From NCBI GenBank assembly GCA_003448025.1, contig DLXL01000585.1:5054-21787 (forward strand): a DNA stretch of 16,734 nt. The letters run 5' to 3'. The notes below the pieces were generated by a model. That model ran no database searches. It saw only the letters and a program-made list of their open reading frames with translations, and was not told where the DNA came from. Below are positions 1-15,091 of this stretch, piece after piece. Position numbers and translations under genes: made by a program. This DNA comes from Saprospirales bacterium (GTDB lineage Bacteria; Bacteroidota; Bacteroidia; Chitinophagales; Saprospiraceae). Positions within the stretch are counted from its first letter, which is position 1; each line of letters opens with the position of its first letter.

Positions 1-749
1 GCATTGGAAACAGCAAGAGAATCCATGCCCCTTGTGTAATAAACAGAATCCAACATCAACTTTTGCTGCATTACTACCATGCGGGTTTTCATTTGTTCTT
101 CAGTCAGATTTTCCAATTCGGCTTCCTTGGCGGCGAGTGCATCTTGTAAAGCTTTACTGCTTTGAAGCATTTTAGCTTGTTCTTCTCTGAACTTTATCTG
201 ATTTTCCAGCAGTTGTCGCTGGGCATCAGTTAGCTCCTTCTGGATTTCCTGACGGTTAACTGGTGCGTCTTCTGTTAGGGTTCCGCCACTTTTGATACGA
301 AGTATCTGGACGTCATATTGTTGCACCAATTGGGGTTTTCCTGCACTTTTTGCAATCGTTTTAAGGCTTTCAAGGTTATCAAGTGCCAGGGTATTGTTCT
401 GGATTCGCTGTGTCCGGAGAATGGCAAGACTTTGTTCAAATTTCCGGTCTGCCCGTTTTTTTCCAGCCAACAGCAAAGCTTTACCTTCCCTGTTCATGGC
501 ATTGGCGCGGAGTTCAGGAAGTCGCAATCTTTCGGCCAAATCTTCTGCATCATCGGCTGAAGCAATGGCTTTTTCCAAATCCCCGGCATACATTTGGGCG
601 TCAGCCAGTGCAATAAGCGCTTCAATTTTAGCAGCGCCTTTTGCATTTGCCGCCTCCGTTTCCAACTGTTTGATTTTGTTGGATTGAGCCCAAATATTTT
701 GGCCAGCCAACATCAAGCAGAGCATAAATAAGATTGCTTTCCTGTTCAC
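1..749 (-). CDS. Secreted helical-repeat/coiled-coil protein, 3' part cut by window edge
   Basis: An open frame runs on the minus strand from a GTG at 747-749 to the left edge (249 codons visible, no stop). The N-terminus, MNRKAILFMLCLMLAGQNIW followed by Ala-Gln, is a clean signal peptide. Residues ~23-150 are Ala/Leu/Glu-rich helical pairs that look like tetratricopeptide repeats, and ~165-235 are strongly charged coiled-coil sequence rich in Gln, Glu, Lys and Leu. In Bacteroidota this order (signal peptide, TPR-like repeats, coiled coil) often precedes a membrane segment and a histidine kinase, SpoIIE/PP2C phosphatase or nucleotide cyclase domain, but none of that is visible here, so the output domain is unknown. 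An internal ATG at codon 9 would shorten the signal peptide and lose its basic residues, so GTG is preferred. The gene lies 32 bp downstream of the fucosidase in the same direction and may be co-transcribed with it. Confidence 0.75.
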   Translation of the reverse strand, partial: MNRKAILFMLCLMLAGQNIWAQSNKIKQLETEAANAKGAAKIEALIALADAQMYAGDLEKAIASADDAEDLAERLRLPELRANAMNREGKALLLAGKKRADRKFEQSLAILRTQRIQNNTLALDNLESLKTIAKSAGKPQLVQQYDVQILRIKSGGTLTEDAPVNRQEIQKELTDAQRQLLENQIKFREEQAKMLQSSKALQDALAAKEAELENLTEEQMKTRMVVMQQKLMLDSVYYTRGMDSLAVSN

Positions 750-781
750 AACGCAAAATTTAAAGTGGTGACGAAGTAGTA

Positions 782-2944
782 TTAATGTCCAAGCATGGCG
801 CTTTCAATGGATCTTTTAGCCTCTCCCAATGGGGCATAATGGACTTTAAGATTTGCATCCCCGCCAGAGTTGAAGTAAATAATGCGAATGGAGTGCCATC
901 CTTTTTGCAAATGAGCAATGCCTGATTTTTCAACAGTTCCATGATCACCATCATTGTTGACTACAACATCGCCATCGATAGAGAGAATGGAGCCGTCATC
1001 AGAGGTGGTCCAGAACTCATATCCACCTGTTTCAGGAACATTGATATAGCCTTTCCAGATCATACCGCATTTTCCTGTTTTGCAGGTAGGGTCCAGTTCA
1101 ATTTTTGTCACATCTTCTGCCCTTTCCAGATTTCCTCTCAGGATTTTGTCTGAAGTATATTTTTCATCCTCAATGGTGCGCAACTCTTCCCGCAAACCTG
1201 TTGCAGGTTCTCTTAGCATGTTTTGCGCAGGCATGATCCGGAATACCTTGACCTGCACAGAATCTACATTGCTGGCAATCAAACCAGGCTTATAGGCTCT
1301 TGCTTTTATCGTAGCAGCAGTGGCTGGTGTAAGAGGAGTGGTATAGGTTGGAGAAGTTTCGGAGGGTTCTCTTCCATCCGTAGTGTAGCGAATAACAGCG
1401 CCTGCTGTGCTTGTGCTCAGTTTGACTGTAGGCTTCACGGTTTCAGGATCATAAAACACTTCCAATTTTGGCTTTGCCACATAATCTCCGTAACCACTGA
1501 TTTTAACCACAAACGCATGGCCTGATTTGATCTTGTTAGGGTTGTATTCCGGAAGGGTAATTACCATGTTGCCTGCCAGATTTTCGGCCTTGACCTTTTC
1601 TTTGGTAGCCAAAAAAGTGACTTCAGCTCCTGTTGCAGGCAATTGCAACCCTTTTAATACAAGCTTTTTATCGTTAGGATAACGCGGGAAAATAGCGTAA
1701 ACTGCTTTGGTTTTCGGATTCCAGGTATAGAATACTTCCTTGACAGCAAAACCATTATCCGGATCAACCGTTTGCTTTAATAACGCATCAATATGCCCTT
1801 TTACGCTCGGATCAGGCTTCCAGTCGCGTCTGCCTGCACTCCACTGTGAAGTTGTTTTCCAGCGGCGGGTATTGAAGATGGCCTCCCCGTTGATATTTAA
1901 CCATTTGCCGATTTCAAGCAGGCGTTCCTGCATAATGGGTGGAATCTTTCCATGAGCATCGGGGCCAATATCCAGCAAAAAGTTGCCCCCCCGGGATACC
2001 TTATCCACCAGGTGCAATACCAAAGATTGCGCGCTGTTGTAATCCCAGGCGTCTTCATGCCGGTTGTATCCATAGGAAGCACCCATGCCTCTGCTTTCTT
2101 CCCATGCATGGTCTTCGAAGTCAAGATCCGGTTGATATTCTGGGGTGTAGATCCCTCCGTGTCTAAATCTGGTATCGCTTCCCCAGCGATCATTGGCAAC
2201 TATATAATCTTTAACCGAGCTTTCATTATATAACCAACTCATGAATTGAGGGGTTTGCCATACCTCTGACGGAGCGTCCCAGTCACCGTCAGACCAAATA
2301 ACCCATGGTTCATAACGCTGGATTAGTTCGTATAGTTGAGGCATGGCATGCTCCTTGGCATATTGAGCTTTGTCGTACTGCCAAATTGGATTAAACCATT
2401 CATATAGAGAAAAGTACAATCCGGGCTTAACTTTGGTTTTGTTGAGGGATTCGAAAAGCTCACCAACCAAGTCGCGCCCCGGGCCACGAACTTCAGCATT
2501 CCATGGCATGCCCCAGGTTCTGTTGGCGTCTTCGTTAGGCCAAAGGCAGAATCCATCATGATGTTTGGAAGTGAGCACTACATATTTAGCCCCTGCCCGT
2601 TCAAAGAGCCTTGCCCAATCGTCGGGGTTATATAGTTCCGCGTGGAAGTCGTCGGCAAGATCATAATAACTGCGATCCCCATAATTGACTTCATGAAACT
2701 GCTTGACCTTTCCTTTGTGTGAATTGTTTTCTAAAGAATGCTGGTACCATTCCGCATAATTTCCTTTTGCGGTAAATGCAGGAACAGAATATACCCCCCA
2801 GTGGATAAAGATACCAAACTTGGCATCAAGCCACCATTCAGGCGTTGGCCTGGAATCAAGCGATTCCCATTCTGGTGTGTACGTCTTTTGTGCATAAAGA
2901 TGTAAAAAAAGAAAGGCAAACAAGGAAGTCAGTAGGATGCGCAT
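782..2944 (-). CDS. Secreted GH29 alpha-L-fucosidase with CHB_HEX_C-like and PA14 modules
   Basis: 720 residues. A signal peptide (residues 1-19, ending Tyr-Ala-Gln) sends it to the periplasm or cell surface. Residues ~25-360 form the GH29 barrel, a retaining hydrolase that removes terminal alpha-L-fucose. Diagnostic blocks are GIFIHWGVYSVPAF near residue 44, SKHHDGFCLWP near 126 and WSDGDW at 217-222, where Asp219 (positions 2288-2290) matches the nucleophile of the family. WEES at 281-284 lies where the human enzyme has its proposed acid/base, making Glu282 the best candidate. The active-site region resembles animal FUCA1 and the broad-specificity GH29-A group. Residues ~380-485 are the usual C-terminal beta domain, ~490-568 resemble the chitobiase/hexosaminidase C-terminal module (RYTTDGREPS), and ~580-712 resemble a PA14 module (GGYEFWTTSDDGS). 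No T9SS sorting domain is present. A degenerate -7 element (TACTTTG on the minus strand, 2983-2989) lies ~40 bp upstream. Substrate linkage cannot be read from sequence. Confidence 0.95.
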   Translation of the reverse strand: MRILLTSLFAFLFLHLYAQKTYTPEWESLDSRPTPEWWLDAKFGIFIHWGVYSVPAFTAKGNYAEWYQHSLENNSHKGKVKQFHEVNYGDRSYYDLADDFHAELYNPDDWARLFERAGAKYVVLTSKHHDGFCLWPNEDANRTWGMPWNAEVRGPGRDLVGELFESLNKTKVKPGLYFSLYEWFNPIWQYDKAQYAKEHAMPQLYELIQRYEPWVIWSDGDWDAPSEVWQTPQFMSWLYNESSVKDYIVANDRWGSDTRFRHGGIYTPEYQPDLDFEDHAWEESRGMGASYGYNRHEDAWDYNSAQSLVLHLVDKVSRGGNFLLDIGPDAHGKIPPIMQERLLEIGKWLNINGEAIFNTRRWKTTSQWSAGRRDWKPDPSVKGHIDALLKQTVDPDNGFAVKEVFYTWNPKTKAVYAIFPRYPNDKKLVLKGLQLPATGAEVTFLATKEKVKAENLAGNMVITLPEYNPNKIKSGHAFVVKISGYGDYVAKPKLEVFYDPETVKPTVKLSTSTAGAVIRYTTDGREPSETSPTYTTPLTPATAATIKARAYKPGLIASNVDSVQVKVFRIMPAQNMLREPATGLREELRTIEDEKYTSDKILRGNLERAEDVTKIELDPTCKTGKCGMIWKGYINVPETGGYEFWTTSDDGSILSIDGDVVVNNDGDHGTVEKSGIAHLQKGWHSIRIIYFNSGGDANLKVHYAPLGEAKRSIESAMLGH

Positions 2945-8114: not shown

Positions 8115-11100
8115 TTATCTTGTAATAGTCACTTTGGCGTACATCGCCTGGCCATTTGCCTGAACACGAAGCGTGTACATGCCGGAAGCCAGATTGCCGT
8201 AATCAAAGTTGCGCATCAGGTTACCTGTACCAAAATCAGTCGTTTCACGCTTGATTTGTTGGCCAATGGCATTGAATAGCACAAATTCAACTTCTTCCTG
8301 CGGAATTCCGTTCATCTCCACGACAAATGTACCGTTGTTTGGATTAGGGAACAGGCGGAAGTTTTCCATCCAGGTTGCCTCTCCCAAGCCTGAAGACAAG
8401 GTTATACTTTGCTGGAATATGGTAGTACCACAACTGTTACTTGCCGACAGGCTAACAGTATAGGTGCCTGGATTTGCATACGTATGAACAGGATTCTGGT
8501 CTGTGCTTGAGTTGCCATCACCAAAGTTCCAGGAATAAGAAACTGCTCCCTGAGAGGTGTTGGTGAATGTTACGGTATTTTGCACTGAAGCAAAGGTAAA
8601 TCCAGAAACTGGTGTTGTCTGAGTAGTCACATACGCCGGGAACGTTTGTGTATTTCCACCAAAAGCGTTGGTTACCTGAAGGGTAACATCATGCACTCCG
8701 GGAGTGCTATACTCAACTACCGGATTCTGTGCGTTGCTGGTACCAGGAGTACCACCAGGGAATGTCCAGCTCCAGGCGGTTGGATTGCCTGCAGACTGAT
8801 CTGTAAACTGTACGGTTAGCGGCACGCAACCACTTTGCTGGTTTGCACTGATGGCTGCTGTTGGAGCAGAACCCTCAATAACTACAGTTTGGGTAGCGGT
8901 TGCAGTACCACAGTCATTAGTAGCAGTAAGTGTAACCACATATGTTCCTGGCTGATTGTAGCTATACGTTGGATTTTGAATGGCACTGCTACCGGTACCA
9001 TCACCAAAATCCCATGCATAGGAAGTAGCGCCTGAAGACGTGTTGGAGAAGTTTACAGACAAACCATTAGACTGTGAGGTAAATCCGGCAGATGGACCTG
9101 CGCCAACCGTAATCGTAGCGGTACTGGTGCTATTGCCAGCCCCGTTGGATGCTGTTAGTGTAACCACATAAACCCCGGCAGCATTCCAGGTAACCACCGG
9201 ATTGGCATCTGTTGAGGAGCTTGGGTTACCACCTGGCAAATTCCAGGACAGGCTCGTTGCATTACTGCTGGAAGCATTATTGAACTGGACTGTGAATGGC
9301 GCGCAACCAGAATTGCTATTGTAGTTAAACCCTGCCACAGGAGGCGTGGATACAGTGACCGTTTGTTCAAAAATAGTGGTACCACAATTGTTGGTAGCTG
9401 CCAGCGTCACGTTATAAACACCATCATTCAGATAAGTGTGTGATGGATCCGGGTCAGCGCTGGTGCTATTGTCGCCAAAGTTCCAGGCATAAGAAGTGGC
9501 GCCGGAAGACAAGTTAGTGAAGTTCACGGTCGTTCCATTGTTGCTGGAGGAGAATCCGGCAACAGGAGCACCATTTACTGTTATAATATCATTTTGTGTA
9601 AATGAGCTGGTAACACCATTCACAGAAGTAACCACCAGTGTTACATCATATACACCAGGCGTGAAGTAGTTAACAGATGGGTTCTGTGCAGACGACGTTG
9701 CAGGAGTACCACCTTCAAATGTCCACTCCCATGAAACTGGATTGCCTGAAGAAATATCTGAAAAATTAACGGTTAAACCTGCGCAACCATTAGTGGTATT
9801 AGCAGAAAATCCTGCACCAGGAGAGGTATTGATGAGCACATTTTGCGAAACAGAACTGGTGCCACAGGCATTAGATACTGTAAGGATGACGGTGTAGGTG
9901 CCATCAGTCGTGTATATGTGCGTTGGGTTTTGATCTGCACTGCTTCCTCCATCGCCAAAGTCCCAGGAGTAAGAAAGACCATTGACGGATGTATTATTAA
10001 ACGTAGCGGTCTGCCCGGTAACATTAGAAGAGAAGTTGGCCGATGGGCCTCCATTCACTACAATGGTTTGTGTTGATGAGCTGGATCCGGCTGCGTTAGA
10101 TACCGTTAATGTGATCGTATAGGTTCCAGGCAGCGTATATACCAGACCGGTTGGATTCTGTACACTGGAGCTGGACGGTGTACCCCCAGGAAACTGCCAA
10201 TCATAGGAAGTGGCATTTGTGCTGGACGTATTGGTAATCTGGATAGACAACGGAGCACATCCGGTATTGCTGGACACTGTGAATCCGGAGCTGGGCGCAG
10301 TTGAAACGGTTACCGTTTGGGTGCTGGTTACTGTTCCACAAGCATTAGTGGCAGACAGTGTAACCGTATATGTGCCATCGGATGAATACGTATGGCTTGG
10401 ATTCTGCTGCGTACTTGAGCCCCCATCACCAAAATTCCATGCATAGGAGGTAGCGCCGGAAGAACTGTTCGTAAAGTTGACGGTCAATCCATTGGCCGAA
10501 GAGTTAAATCCGGCAGTTGGCGCCGGGTTTACGACAATGAAATTGTTTTTAACAATGGTGTCACGACCAGCGCTATTAATGGAAATAAGCGTCACAGGAT
10601 AAGAACCCGGAGTGTTATACACTACAGAAGGATTTTGCAGCGTGGAGGTATTCGGAGTTCCTCCCGGGAATTGCCACTGGAAAGAAGTAGCATTCGGCGT
10701 AGATTGATTGTTCATCTGAACCGTCAACGGGCCACATCCGCTGGTAGGTACAGCACTGAAATTCGCCTTTGGTTCTGTGATAATCGTTACCTGTTGGGTG
10801 TCAGAAACGGTTCCGCAATCGTTGGTTGCAAACAGGATTACCTGGTAAGTGATAATATCGTCAGATACCGGATATTCATGAACTGGGTTTTCCACCAGAC
10901 TGCTATCGCCGTCGCCAAAAGTCCACAGGAAGCTTGTGCCGCCAAGAGACTCATTGGTGAAAGAGATGGAAGTGTTTGTGTTGGCAGAATGGCTGAATGC
11001 GGCTGTAGGTACGGTATTAACCGTAATGGTAGAGGTGGTGGTGCTGCTGCCACTGCCATTGGTTGCGGTAAGAGTTACGGTATAAACCCCTGTGTTTCCG

Positions 11101-14100
11101 TAGGATACAGTTGGATTTGCAGCGGTTGATGTATTTGGAATACCGCCAGGGAACGACCAGCTGTAAGAAACAGCACCGGTAGAGTTGTTGGTAAAACTCA
11201 CTACCAATGGAGAGCCTGCAGGATCCCAGCAGTTTTCTACCGGATCAACATTTTCAGCTTCTCCTGCATGCTCGGTAAGTCTGCATGCTTCCTCAATGGT
11301 TCTCAGAACATTGTAGTGATTAATCGATTGGTTGTAGTTTCCTTGCTCAACGTGCGCACCATAAAATACGGTAGCAATCTTATTGTCGTTGGAGAAAGGA
11401 TTCTCATCATAAGTAACAATGAGCAATGAATTGTGGTCAACACACCACTGCTTGTAGGCATCCAGATTGGCCTGGAGCCAATTGTCAAACTGTTTTACCG
11501 GGTTGTTTAATGGCGCGCATGCGTCATGCCCGCCCCCGCAGATATCCGGAATCACAAATGCGACATTAGGAAGGCTGTCAAAAATGGCTGGGAATGCAGA
11601 AAATGGCTGGTTAGTAGTTGCAGGAATCTGATTTAAACCATTACCCATCCAGTTGGCGGCCGGGTTGTGCGCTCTGGTATAATTTCCATTTTGAGCACCA
11701 TTGAATCCAACAGATGGCAACCCTTCGGAATAAGTCCGGTAGGATTTTTGGGCATTGATTAATGCGCTGCCGAGGTTTTCTGTGGTAAAAGATGCTGGAA
11801 TAAGGTTATCATTCGTTATACCCTGGTTACTGCCGGAAAAAAGTGCCAGATAGTTGGGTTGGCTTTCATCGAAAACAGCATAAGCATTACCGAATTTGGC
11901 TCCGGTGTTCGCTAGTGCATTCAGGTAGGGAGCACTGGGGTCTCCAAATACAGGGTCAGGGCTGTCCATTCCACCTACTACCACTACAATATGATCATAA
12001 GCTGGAACAGGATTAGAAGGTATACAGCCTGATGAAGGAGTTGCTGTAAATGCAGCAATTGGTGATCCCTGAGATATCACCACCACTTGTGATGTTTTGG
12101 TACTGACACCGCATTCATTGGTTATGGTCAGCACAACGGTATAAGTTCCGGGGCTGGGGTACGTATGTATTGGGTTTTTGACTATGCTGGTGTCGCCGTC
12201 CCCAAAACTCCAATGATAGGTATTGACGGTACCAATCGAGGTGTTGGTGAAAGTTACCGTTGCGCCATTTATGGAAGAGGAGAAATTGGCCACCGGGGGA
12301 GCTTTTACGGTGATATAGGAAACCCTGGTCAAGGTGTCAGCTCCACTTTGATTGGAAGCCCGAAGTGTTATAGGGTAAGTTCCAGCTATGGGATAAACCA
12401 CAGTTGGATTTGGCTGGTTGGATGCAGCTGGAGTGCCTCCAGGAAAGGTCCATTGATAGGCAAGTGCATTCGGCGACGACTGGTTGGTGAGGGTAATTAC
12501 CAGCGTAGCACAACCAGTGGTAGGCTCTGCTTCAAAATTAGCTGTAGGAGCCGTATTGATCAAAGTCGACTTTGTTACCGTACCACAGGCATTGGTTACT
12601 TTTAATGTAACAGTATAAAAGTTAGCGTCCTGGTATTCATGGACGGGGTTTTCTTCAAAACTACTATTGCCATCTCCAAAATCCCATTCATAGGAAACAC
12701 CAAACTGAGAAGTATTGGTGAAAGTCAAAACCCGGCCATTTACCGTGTAGGTAAAACTTGCAATCGGCAAGGGATCGATAGTGATGGTATGTATTTTGGT
12801 AGATGAGCCGCTGGGGCCAGTTGCAGTGAGTGTCACATTACGTGTGCCAGGGGTATTCCAAATAACACTTGGGTTTTGCTGATTGGACGTAGCCGGGTTG
12901 CCGTTGGGGAATACCCAGGCCCAACTAGTCACGTTTCCGGTAGTTAAATCCGTGAATTGAACTGGAGAGCCTTCACATCCAGGGTCAGGACTCCAGGTAA
13001 AGTCTGCAACCAAAGCCGGTCCACAAGCGGAAAGGCAGCCGTTATTAATACGGCCCTGAGCATAGTTATTGATGGCATTAATGGATTGGTTACTCCATTG
13101 ATCAGAAGTATTCACCGTTGGACACATAATCCACTGATCACATCCATTGGGATCGTGTCCACTTGAAAAATTATGTCCCAATTCATGGGAGGTAAGCACG
13201 CGAAGAAATTGCGCATTACCGCTGAAGTCCTGTAAGCAGTGATATTTGACATTATTACATATACCACTCAGGTAGGCGATACCAATCGTTCCGCCATTAA
13301 AATCACGGTCAGTCCATAATTCCCCTACGTCAAAATTAACCCCGAAACCACCATTATTTCCCCAGGTTCTGAAGCTATCCAACAGGGTTCCTGCATCCGT
13401 AGAGGCCGTCCAAGGGTCATTATCTGATACAAACTGAGTTACAATAACAAAAATTAGATCATGGTTAAAACTACCGGTATAATCGCCCTGTACATTGTTG
13501 AGTACTGCAATGTTATGGTCTTCCACGGCCCCCACAGAACCATAACTGTTCAGCATTAATTCATCTGATGCAATAGCGATTTCTACTTCATAGCATGCCA
13601 TATTTTCAGCGCCTCCTTGATTTGCTTTGTCGTTTAGAGCATCTTCAAGGTGTTGCATTTCTATCATTTCTTCCGTAACCCCACACGCATCGGGCGCTAA
13701 TGGGTTTACTGCGCTGCCAGGATAAAGCACAAAAAGATCTTTGCTGGCCTGAGGCTCAAAATACCACAATGGTTCAATATAGTACCGTTCTAATCCCTCC
13801 ATTACATAACCATACATAAATTCGTTGTGTATGGTAAGCCGGACATTTCCACCTCCATTCAATTCATTTCCTTTAAATGCAATTTGAGGCTTGTCATAGC
13901 TTACGGAAACACCTTCAGTTGTTTGGAACTGAACCGAATAGTTGTCGGCGAGAATTCTACTTGGCGTGAGTGCCAGATTCCAGTTGTGTGTGCCAACAAT
14001 CAGCTGGATAGAAGATTCTGTGTTGGATTTCATTTGTTTATCCAACATCTTGGCATCCAAACGGAATACCTGATACTCCGAAAATTGGCTTGCCAATGTG

Positions 14101-14216
14101 GATGATGTATGTGGCTCGATATCTGCCACAAAGGATTGTGCATTGAGTAGACTGGTCAGACTTTGCAGAACCATTACCAATACTATACAACCCCACAGAC
14201 GTAGTAACTTGACCAT
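8115..14216 (-). CDS. Giant T9SS-secreted metzincin / 16-PKD protein with an embedded phosphoesterase domain
   Basis: 2033 residues. Order: signal peptide (1-26, ending Asn-Ala-Gln); propeptide-like beta-rich region (~27-205); metzincin zinc protease, reprolysin-like (~208-395); PKD domains 1-4 (401-715); PKD 5 split by a phosphoesterase-family domain (734-1002); PKD 6-16 (1068-1941); T9SS type A sorting domain (~1954-2033). The protein should cross the outer membrane by T9SS, lose the sorting domain and be released or anchored to surface lipopolysaccharide. PKD chains usually act as spacers or adhesive stalks; the protease head could cut host, prey or matrix proteins. Amino acid use (Thr, Ser, Asn, Gly-rich; almost no Lys in the PKD part) is typical of secreted Bacteroidota adhesins. 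The reading frame is unbroken. A -7 element lies ~155 bp upstream and a strong terminator follows. Activity of the protease and target are inferred, not shown. Confidence 0.95.
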   Translation of the reverse strand: MVKLLRLWGCIVLVMVLQSLTSLLNAQSFVADIEPHTSSTLASQFSEYQVFRLDAKMLDKQMKSNTESSIQLIVGTHNWNLALTPSRILADNYSVQFQTTEGVSVSYDKPQIAFKGNELNGGGNVRLTIHNEFMYGYVMEGLERYYIEPLWYFEPQASKDLFVLYPGSAVNPLAPDACGVTEEMIEMQHLEDALNDKANQGGAENMACYEVEIAIASDELMLNSYGSVGAVEDHNIAVLNNVQGDYTGSFNHDLIFVIVTQFVSDNDPWTASTDAGTLLDSFRTWGNNGGFGVNFDVGELWTDRDFNGGTIGIAYLSGICNNVKYHCLQDFSGNAQFLRVLTSHELGHNFSSGHDPNGCDQWIMCPTVNTSDQWSNQSINAINNYAQGRINNGCLSACGPALVADFTWSPDPGCEGSPVQFTDLTTGNVTSWAWVFPNGNPATSNQQNPSVIWNTPGTRNVTLTATGPSGSSTKIHTITIDPLPIASFTYTVNGRVLTFTNTSQFGVSYEWDFGDGNSSFEENPVHEYQDANFYTVTLKVTNACGTVTKSTLINTAPTANFEAEPTTGCATLVITLTNQSSPNALAYQWTFPGGTPAASNQPNPTVVYPIAGTYPITLRASNQSGADTLTRVSYITVKAPPVANFSSSINGATVTFTNTSIGTVNTYHWSFGDGDTSIVKNPIHTYPSPGTYTVVLTITNECGVSTKTSQVVVISQGSPIAAFTATPSSGCIPSNPVPAYDHIVVVVGGMDSPDPVFGDPSAPYLNALANTGAKFGNAYAVFDESQPNYLALFSGSNQGITNDNLIPASFTTENLGSALINAQKSYRTYSEGLPSVGFNGAQNGNYTRAHNPAANWMGNGLNQIPATTNQPFSAFPAIFDSLPNVAFVIPDICGGGHDACAPLNNPVKQFDNWLQANLDAYKQWCVDHNSLLIVTYDENPFSNDNKIATVFYGAHVEQGNYNQSINHYNVLRTIEEACRLTEHAGEAENVDPVENCWDPAGSPLVVSFTNNSTGAVSYSWSFPGGIPNTSTAANPTVSYGNTGVYTVTLTATNGSGSSTTTSTITVNTVPTAAFSHSANTNTSISFTNESLGGTSFLWTFGDGDSSLVENPVHEYPVSDDIITYQVILFATNDCGTVSDTQQVTIITEPKANFSAVPTSGCGPLTVQMNNQSTPNATSFQWQFPGGTPNTSTLQNPSVVYNTPGSYPVTLISINSAGRDTIVKNNFIVVNPAPTAGFNSSANGLTVNFTNSSSGATSYAWNFGDGGSSTQQNPSHTYSSDGTYTVTLSATNACGTVTSTQTVTVSTAPSSGFTVSSNTGCAPLSIQITNTSSTNATSYDWQFPGGTPSSSSVQNPTGLVYTLPGTYTITLTVSNAAGSSSSTQTIVVNGGPSANFSSNVTGQTATFNNTSVNGLSYSWDFGDGGSSADQNPTHIYTTDGTYTVILTVSNACGTSSVSQNVLINTSPGAGFSANTTNGCAGLTVNFSDISSGNPVSWEWTFEGGTPATSSAQNPSVNYFTPGVYDVTLVVTSVNGVTSSFTQNDIITVNGAPVAGFSSSNNGTTVNFTNLSSGATSYAWNFGDNSTSADPDPSHTYLNDGVYNVTLAATNNCGTTIFEQTVTVSTPPVAGFNYNSNSGCAPFTVQFNNASSSNATSLSWNLPGGNPSSSTDANPVVTWNAAGVYVVTLTASNGAGNSTSTATITVGAGPSAGFTSQSNGLSVNFSNTSSGATSYAWDFGDGTGSSAIQNPTYSYNQPGTYVVTLTATNDCGTATATQTVVIEGSAPTAAISANQQSGCVPLTVQFTDQSAGNPTAWSWTFPGGTPGTSNAQNPVVEYSTPGVHDVTLQVTNAFGGNTQTFPAYVTTQTTPVSGFTFASVQNTVTFTNTSQGAVSYSWNFGDGNSSTDQNPVHTYANPGTYTVSLSASNSCGTTIFQQSITLSSGLGEATWMENFRLFPNPNNGTFVVEMNGIPQEEVEFVLFNAIGQQIKRETTDFGTGNLMRNFDYGNLASGMYTLRVQANGQAMYAKVTITR
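8118..8357 (-). other. T9SS type A C-terminal sorting domain (residues 1954-2033)
   Basis: The last ~80 residues begin with the hallmark RLFPNPNNGTFVVEM, continue with VEFVLFNAIGQQI and end with SGMYTLRVQA and a Lys-containing final strand. This order is the standard Bacteroidota secretion-sorting signal recognised by the PorU-V-Q-Z machinery. It is joined to PKD 16 by a short linker. Confidence 0.93.
8394..13016 (-). repeat. Array of 16 PKD domains in eight A-B doublets (residues 401-1941)
   Basis: Type A domains (approx. 401-480, 556-638, 719-733+1003-1066, 1149-1230, 1307-1387, 1465-1547, 1625-1704, 1784-1865) carry a Gly-Cys near the first strand and usually a W-x-FPGGTP core. Type B domains (483-553, 640-715, 1068-1146, 1232-1304, 1390-1462, 1550-1623, 1707-1780, 1868-1941) carry the classic W-x-FGDG core and an N-x-CG motif near the end. 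The A-to-A period is 155-162 residues (~465-486 bp). At DNA level the copies are clearly diverged, so this is a protein repeat rather than a recent DNA tandem duplication. Confidence 0.93.
11211..12017 (-). other. Phosphoesterase-family domain inserted in PKD 5 (residues 734-1002)
   Basis: The segment matches the small acid-phosphatase/phospholipase-C-like phosphoesterase family (PF04185 type): YDHIVVVV (740-747), SAPYLNALA, ESQPNYLALFSGS (784-796), YSEGLPSVGFNG (829-840), HNP (850-852), GGHDAC (895-900), LLIVTYDENP (931-940), NHYNVLRTIEE (966-976) and a terminal CWDP (996-999). The usual Glu-Glu-Asn-His after the first strand is replaced by Gly748-Gly749-Met750-Asp751. The domain is flanked directly by the two halves of a type A PKD domain. 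Function is therefore doubtful: it may be inactive, or bind rather than cleave. Confidence 0.88.
13032..13595 (-). other. Metzincin zinc-protease domain (residues ~208-395)
   Basis: Zinc site HELGHNFSSGHD (His344, Glu345, His348, His354, with Asp355), Met-turn at Met364 in WIMCP, and downstream SDQWSNQSINAINN, an order typical of reprolysin-like (M12B-type) proteases of Bacteroidota. Upstream strand/helix blocks (DLIFVIVTQFV, DAGTLLDSFRTW, GIAYLSGICN) fit the N-terminal subdomain. The usual Gly at position 8 of the zinc motif is Ser351. Catalytic activity is likely. Confidence 0.9.
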
Positions 14217-14497: not shown

Positions 14498-15091
14498 ATG
14501 CAAATGCAACAAAAAATCGCGGCGTTCGTCGCTTTGTCACTCTTTTTGACACTTTCCTCTTCAACTCATGCCCAAAGATCCAGGGATCGCAAAAAGGAAG
14601 AAAAGGAATCTCCACAAGGCTTTACCTCCAAACTTTGGTATGGAGGAGGGGTAATTGTTGGGTTGGGTGGTTTTAACGGTTATTCCAGCTTTAACTTTGG
14701 GTTGTCTCCGATGGTTGGCTATAAAATCGTCGGGCCACTTTCCGTTGGCCCAAGGGTGGCTTATGATCTTATTTCCAACAAACAACGTGGCTTTAAAGCT
14801 ATTAACCTGCACAGTTTTGACGTAGGTGGTTTTGTGCGCTGCAGGGTGTTTAGAGGCTTATTTGTCCAGGGAGAAGTTTCAAACCAATGGTTTCAGAATT
14901 TTGATCCGAATACCGGCGATAAATTCAGTGACGAAAGGGTTAATCAACGATTAGGAGCAGGCTGGAATTTTGGCTCCCCAGGCGGCAGTGGTTCCGAGAT
15001 AAGCCTGATGTATAACTTTCGCATAGCAAACGACATCAATACCTGGCAAACACCTATGGAATACCGATTCGGGTTTACCTGGAAATTCTAA
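14498..15091 (+). CDS. Small outer-membrane beta-barrel protein
   Basis: 197 residues. Signal peptide MQMQQKIAAFVALSLFLTL continuing to Thr-His-Ala-Gln (residue 26), then a short charged stretch (RSRDRKKEEKE) and about 150 residues of alternating aromatic/glycine strands, for example WYGGGVIVGLGG, FNFGLSPMVGYKI, LSVGPRVAYDLI, HSFDVGGFVRCRV, GLFVQGEVSNQWF, RLGAGWNF, EISLMYNF and the end YRFGFTWKF. The terminal Phe fits recognition by the BAM complex, and the strand count suggests an eight-stranded barrel of the OmpA/porin-like kind. No enzymatic motif is visible and the role is unknown. A second ATG at 14504 could also serve as start. It is divergent from the giant gene and followed by fbaB after 75 bp. 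Confidence 0.82.
   Translation: MQMQQKIAAFVALSLFLTLSSSTHAQRSRDRKKEEKESPQGFTSKLWYGGGVIVGLGGFNGYSSFNFGLSPMVGYKIVGPLSVGPRVAYDLISNKQRGFKAINLHSFDVGGFVRCRVFRGLFVQGEVSNQWFQNFDPNTGDKFSDERVNQRLGAGWNFGSPGGSGSEISLMYNFRIANDINTWQTPMEYRFGFTWKF

Follow-up and report, generated by a model that had tools for sequence, protein, structure and literature searches.

A phosphoesterase-fold domain nested within a PKD domain of a T9SS-exported Saprospiraceae metalloprotease and its apparent exchange as a loaded cassette

The window, by which is meant the whole stretch of 16,734 nucleotides that was analysed, carries on its reverse strand a long gene (the host gene) within which a second protein fold is embedded. The features of the host gene, with protein residues in host numbering, are as follows.

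8115..14216, minus strand: host gene, one open frame, 2033 amino acids
13017..13586, minus strand: reprolysin-like (M12B) metalloprotease domain, residues about 211–400 (Pfam PF13574 at 229–400, PF01421 at 211–387)
12018..12062, minus strand: first strand segment of PKD domain 5 (A3), residues 719–733 (from alignment with empty orthologues)
11211..12017, minus strand: nested phosphoesterase-fold domain, residues 734–1002 (homology core about 735–997)
11967..11972, minus strand: residues 749–750 (Gly-Met), Glu-Asn in short relatives (from residue counts)
11001..11210, minus strand: rest of PKD domain 5 (A3), residues 1003–1072 (from alignment; strands from 1004–1010 onward)
8124..8354, minus strand: T9SS C-terminal sorting domain, residues 1955–2031 (PF18962 and TIGR04183)

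The host protein consists of a signal peptide (assigned by eye), an M12B-like metalloprotease, a PKD array with 16 PKD stretches recognized by Pfam and a T9SS type A sorting tail. Its zinc motif, HELGHNFSSGH, has the HExxH and third histidine of an M12B-like protease, and all of the best 120 host proteins, from a total of 248, have HExxH with a histidine at position 11. The tail scores as that of a T9SS cargo against both PF18962 (34.8 bits, cut-off 27) and TIGR04183 (30.2 bits, cut-off 23). Of the 42 genomes compared within the genus, 41, its own among them, have a counterpart of residues 1–406. The host gene is adjoined by a gene for a 197-residue protein (14498–15091) that has no Pfam match and appears outer-membrane-like by eye; this neighbour adjoins the host gene in 26 of the 31 relatives' loci searched. 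An α-L-fucosidase with CHB_HEX and PA14 domains (782–2944), a secreted-looking glycosidase, is encoded close to the host gene.

The insert interrupts the fifth PKD domain, A3, after its first strand and before its second; the two parts of A3 read AAFTATPSSGCIP ahead of the insert and PLVVSFTNNSTGAVSYSW behind it. The original prediction had placed a phosphoesterase domain inside this PKD domain at residues 734–1002 (12017–11211), and these coordinates hold: the excised residues match PF04185 (Phosphoesterase) in a profile search with 95.5 bits (cut-off 23; E = 4.7e-27). Similarity to short relatives spans about residues 735–997; Ser734 and residues 998–1002 are linkers. It had also been proposed that the normal A-to-A cysteine spacing returns when the insert is removed, and the spacing is indeed 430 in the window (730 to 1160) versus 160 in the uninterrupted orthologue of genome G064 (732 to 892), a net gain of 270 residues made up of the 269 of the insert and one extra proline. 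The empty site of G064 reads PPTAAFTANPSSGCAP directly followed by LTVNFTNNTTGAVSYLWTFPGG, and the window reads SPIAAFTATPSSGCIP, then 269 residues, then PLVVSFTNNSTGAVSYSWSFPGG. In a search for a target-site duplication only one proline codon was found on each side (CCT/CCA in the window, CCT/CCG in G020, CCA/CCG in G033), which is not evidence of one.

PF04185 was not reported when the full-length window protein was scanned with Pfam, and the same was true of the related proteins P0002, P0003 and P0005; P0007 is the only one of five full-length proteins in which the scan shows it. Routine annotation may miss such nested domains.

When 5.8 billion proteins were searched with P0001's insert region as query, 29 long proteins were listed, the query included. 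Seven others among those listed (P0002–P0007 and P0009) are the same kind of protein, with inserts 75–95% identical. Both junctions recur in P0002–P0007, on contigs separate from the window; P0009 begins inside the insert and has the right junction only, and G060, found through its host gene, ends inside the insert and has the left junction only. The insert is present in two of the 36 same-genus genomes searched, G020 and G033, which correspond to P0005 and P0004, so that eight distinct sequences stand beside that of the window. Among GTDB genomes eight loci were matched, three of them nested (JAFLBO010000001, a contig of 710,705 bp, JACMMM010000445 and JAEUUS010000344); these are G020, G033 and G060 again and add no cases. 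The homologue search suggested earlier thus recovered both junctions in six further proteins and one junction in two. The window comes from a draft metagenome-assembled genome of 648 contigs in which repeats are present, circumstances that would favour a mis-assembly or a chimera of two genes, but the same junctions occur on independent contigs, one of them the contig of 710,705 bp. Because both junctions recur in independent genomes, mis-assembly was rejected; it is in practice excluded, and we assign it virtually no probability.

Among the best 120 of 248 host proteins, the insert motif was found only in the seven already known. Other nested inserts were sought in the same 120 proteins as gaps of more than 130 residues between PKD landmarks, which occur in 52 proteins, the seven included. 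Outside the seven, the gaps above 200 residues in P0181, P0193, P0204 and P0210 proved to be tandem Ig/PKD domains or missed landmarks; the one in P0182, also above 200 residues, equals that of P0181, and gaps of 156–161 were taken as one missed landmark. In P0181 (about 840–1180) and P0204 (about 1000–1170) a different Ig-like repeat (ACGGxPV...FNGT) replaces the PKD domains, in tandem and not nested.

The fold of the interrupted domain was modelled with AlphaFold2 on residues 640–1160 (521 residues) from 45 alignment rows, the empty-site orthologues being absent from the rows. The model has a mean pLDDT of 90.1 and a pTM of 0.68. Strand 1 of A3 is modelled at 723–726 and 729–731 (block pLDDT 87), and the A3 strands (84–87 and 90–92, then 365–371, 378–382, 397–400, 404–414 and 417–428 in model numbering) follow the order seen in the neighbouring PKD domains B2 and B3. 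In a control model, for which the same slice was ended at residue 1003, slice residues 77–93 (716–732) have pLDDT values below 50, strand 1 is absent and the block mean falls from 87 to 40; blocks of the insert mostly have pLDDT values of 90–98 in both models. The modelled insert has the alkaline-phosphatase-like fold of AcpA and of non-specific phospholipase C. As strand 1 is ordered with residues 1004–1160 and disordered without them, it is predicted to need a partner 270 residues downstream. PKD domain A3 is therefore predicted to fold from both halves, closing round the insert, with packing judged in silico by secondary structure and pLDDT and not by coordinates or contacts. The models with and without the downstream part thus support the original prediction that the PKD fold closes around the insert, with residues 723–731 predicted to be coupled to the downstream part and not apart from it. 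That the junction lies in the loop following strand 1 of the PKD domain is borne out by sequence, orthologues and model alike, and display of the insert from the side of the stalk is consistent with the model only. In a Foldseek search with the model of residues 640–1160, the first row was a fragment of GhpA, the Aureispira grappling hook protein.

Sequence searches of the PDB with the insert, and with a profile of short relatives, gave nothing significant. The catalytic residues were therefore assigned from NPC4 according to their order and to where they lie among the predicted strands and helices; the residue correspondence rests on order and secondary structure, not on structure alignment. 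In the short relatives that were counted (the best 120 of 2894), the Glu and the Asn that follow the first strand are each present in 119 of 120 and the third Asp in 116 of 120. The nested copies lack this Glu-Asn pair: residue 749 is Gly in all seven, residue 750 is Met in one, Lys in five and Asn in one, and Asp939 is replaced by Asn in all seven. Asn750 is kept in P0005 and also in G060, which covers only positions 749, 750 and 783 (Gly, Asn and Pro). Ser785, His850, His897, Asp937, Glu938 and His967 are kept in seven of seven nested copies, so that the nucleophile Ser/Thr, the Asp-Glu pair and a His (Ser785, Asp937, Glu938 and His897) are retained. In NPC4, replacement of E23 or N24 by alanine is reported to leave dramatically less activity or none (PMC9837106).

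Since its fold is conserved although the Glu and, in six of seven copies, the Asn are lost, the nested domain is probably a pseudo-phosphoesterase with a putative use in binding. The six residues kept throughout mean that some activity is possible, and together with the conserved fold they speak for a domain with the same nesting that still works as a phosphoesterase through its remaining Ser, Asp, Glu and His, the host then displaying two enzymes. Against this stand the loss of Glu749 in all seven copies and of Asn750 in six of seven, the change of Asp939 to Asn throughout and the effect of the NPC4 substitutions, and a working enzyme is accordingly judged unlikely.

The loss of catalytic residues would also suit a neutral passenger, a chance in-frame insertion that the host tolerates and that is now decaying. 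The frame is, however, open in every copy seen, pairwise identity of the inserts between the seven full copies remains at 72–87%, and dN lies below that of the flanking PKD domains (dS being saturated). By the NG86 method, dN of the insert is 0.170 for G000–G020, 0.148 for G000–G033 and 0.171 for G020–G033, and that of the 240-residue PKD flanks is 0.22–0.32 for the same three pairs. The corresponding values for the protease part are 0.163, 0.294 and 0.266, so that in the closest pair, G000–G020, the insert is no lower than the protease part. For 11 of 12 comparisons no dS could be computed by NG86; YN00 succeeded for eight of 12 and, with dS saturated at 1.05–1.96, gave dN/dS values of 0.10–0.12 for the insert versus 0.16–0.29 for the flanks where computable. 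These comparisons indicate that the fold of the insert is kept, and a decaying passenger seems very improbable. Base composition gives no clear signal of recent acquisition (GC of insert versus flanks 0.461/0.480 in the window, 0.473/0.477 in G020 and 0.456/0.501 in G033).

Host genes were compared within the genus (n = 40, excluding the two matched genomes G003, with a best identity of 31%, and G016). Three carry the insert, 33 extend past A3 without the first motif of the insert and four end before A3. The gene order 197-residue protein, host, TIM, UbiX, RuvB is common to the window and G020, both with the insert, and to G064 and G025a, both without; the gene we take to be UbiX is one with a Pfam Flavoprotein match. 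TIM also follows the host gene in G033, which has the insert. Two empty orthologues (G064 and G025a) are thus at the same syntenic locus. G025 has two copies of the host gene (L054 and L055), both without the insert, which group with different insert-bearing proteins.

The inserts form one clade (SH-aLRT 100; 100/100 in a second tree), and the group nearest to this clade in the tree consists of the T9SS-tailed phosphoesterases P0030, P0032, P0033, P0035 and P0044. A short copy that could have served as donor was sought in the window's own genome, which is 84.5% complete, and none was found at E 0.001. In a host tree of the first 405 residues, with rows from the first 33 of 113 newly listed hosts, at least six changes in insert state are required, all forced by well supported branches; six gains suffice, and one gain would need 18 losses. 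This tree counted G010 as without the insert although its contig ends before A3, and G010 sits among empty rows. In an earlier host tree with other rows, grouping all insert-bearing rows in a single clade was rejected (AU p = 0.0007); G010, G024, G061 and G063b, whose contigs stop short of A3, entered that tree as lacking the insert, and G062, G015 and G006, which have no N-terminus, were omitted. Sister alleles also differ: P0007 has the insert and P0163 does not (N-termini 92% identical), and likewise P0006 and P0167 (89%). Vertical descent is not rejected by the insert tree alone, in which P0003 and P0006 could be held together (AU p = 0.24); P0001, P0005 and G060 are together in the best insert tree (support 50/69).

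A mosaic is most readily seen in P0007, a metagenome protein that, like P0163, was read as protein sequence. The two are 58–63% identical over residues 1001–1080, and their identity is 82–100% in each of the remaining 40-residue bins. Where P0163 and P0002 carry different residues, P0007 resembles P0002 at 20 sites and P0163 at four within the A3 shell; elsewhere the numbers are 32 and 287, respectively (Fisher p = 7.6e-15). The switch points lie near residues 714–725 and 1070–1073 in window numbering, at the edges of one PKD domain, and the P0007 insert groups with that of P0002 (88/86). The next relative, the empty P0162, has an A3 of the P0163 kind (by eye), which points to import of a loaded domain, that is, one with its insert, into the P0007 lineage.

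Wider tests (nearest neighbours, excess identity and site counts) used the first 31 of 113 newly listed hosts, with G060 and P0009 omitted. The nearest neighbour of the A3 remainder is itself insert-bearing for six of seven insert-bearing proteins; for other parts this holds for two of seven (N-terminus), two of seven (B2), none of seven (the stretch before B2), none of seven (the next PKD domain, B3) and three of seven (the following 160 residues). In site-count tests (n = 42), P0001, P0002, P0003, P0006 and P0007 each gave at least one value below 0.0012; P0004 and P0005 gave no mosaic signal after correction over the 42 comparisons. Across 18 windows, the same-state signal is strongest directly after the junction (p = 0.0002 in the first 40 residues, then 0.0088); four other windows reach a nominal 0.05 and only the first survives Bonferroni correction, the signal there including similarity among empty A3 shells. 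Co-transfer as a general rule was rejected, as the excess of with–with over with–without similarity at A3 falls short of significance once N-terminal distance is allowed for (p = 0.20 and 0.18).

One early gain, at the root of the host clade, with many precise losses thereafter and no exchange between lineages, would agree with a single, deeply diverged insert clade and with host clades that the insert tree does not reject. It would require the 18 losses to be independent and precise; moreover, the A3 shell of P0007 sides with P0002, the remainder of the gene siding with P0163, its empty sister, empty P0162 and P0163 have an A3 of their own kind in common, and localized A3 discordance is found in five of seven insert-bearing proteins (Bonferroni, 42 tests). 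We hold such a history to be rather unlikely. From the P0007 mosaic and the patchy distribution, loaded PKD domains are apparently exchanged as cassettes between relatives; the mosaic is clear in one protein and has weaker support in four more.

The explanation that we favour as a whole, and regard as likely, is that of a T9SS-exported protease with a nested pseudo-phosphoesterase binding module whose loaded PKD domain is swapped as a unit. A T9SS-exported M12B-like metalloprotease carries an AcpA/NPC-like phosphoesterase-fold domain in the strand 1–2 loop of its fifth PKD domain, as sequence, orthologues and model show; this PKD domain is predicted to fold from two halves and so to hold the insert at two points. 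The insert would descend once from a short T9SS-tailed phosphoesterase of Bacteroidota. Loss of the catalytic/metal-site Glu (the neighbouring Asn belonging to the same site) would have preceded its spread, the fold remaining conserved. The insert is most likely a putative binding module on the protease stalk, for which phosphate- or sulfate-bearing polymers or head groups, for example, may be ligands. Loaded and empty PKD domains would be exchanged as a unit by recombination in the surrounding homologous sequence, which would explain why close relatives differ in having a loaded one. The broader proposition, that the PKD strand 1–2 loop is a natural docking site and that loaded and empty PKD domains are interchangeable single-domain cassettes between Saprospiraceae species at one conserved locus, is put forward tentatively, at somewhat less than even odds.

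The closest known proteins differ in several respects. The short T9SS-tailed phosphoesterases of Bacteroidota (P0030–P0062, the best 33 matches) share 59–65% identity over 96–100% of the insert, and 30 of the 33 have a PF18962 tail, but they stand alone and, unlike the nested copies, keep the Glu-Asn pair and the third Asp. AcpA (PDB entry 2d1g), fungal RePLC (8k3g) and plant non-specific phospholipase C (8haw) are enzymes and are not nested; AcpA presumably has the same Glu-Asn pair. In the large proteins P0013, P0008 and P0010, PF04185 occurs in one chain in tandem with PKD or FN3 domains, likewise beside Ig-like domains, but between whole domains and not inside one, and with Glu-Asn present except in the first of the two copies of P0008 (these two differences by eye). 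The pair that the window's nested copy lacks is E23 and N24 in NPC4 (PMC9837106).

Module shuffling of surface proteins is already known (PMC5266723, PMC8416519). The gingipains of Porphyromonas gingivalis are T9SS proteases, and their adhesin modules differ from strain to strain through rearrangement and allelic exchange; there, whole tandem modules are exchanged within one species, and the sections available mention no nested domain (PMC5266723). VARTIG proteins of Thermococcales are Ig-domain surface proteins that recombine between species in situ, with a variable C-terminal domain and, in the excerpts at hand, no mention of a nested enzyme fold (PMC8416519).

Nested domains and pseudo-enzymes are in general known kinds. 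A search of the open-licence PMC literature turned up no paper in which a PKD domain houses another domain, none on a PF04185 pseudo-enzyme and none on Saprospiraceae with a PKD domain; the earlier statement that no described family with such a layout was known agrees with this search. Beyond that statement, the present analysis adds the loss of catalytic residues, presence and absence among close relatives and the exchangeable loaded PKD domain.

The insertion of one domain into another is often deduced from a lone, fixed example. In the present case close relatives have loaded and empty orthologues at one locus, and tolerance, gain, loss and exchange can therefore be followed in nature. The analysis identifies a PKD loop that is permissive and could serve to display a payload. 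It also identifies a probable pseudo-phosphoesterase in which the fold would be kept for something other than the known catalysis. If the cassette reading is true, a surface protease would gain or shed a side-mounted binding module with its stalk unharmed.
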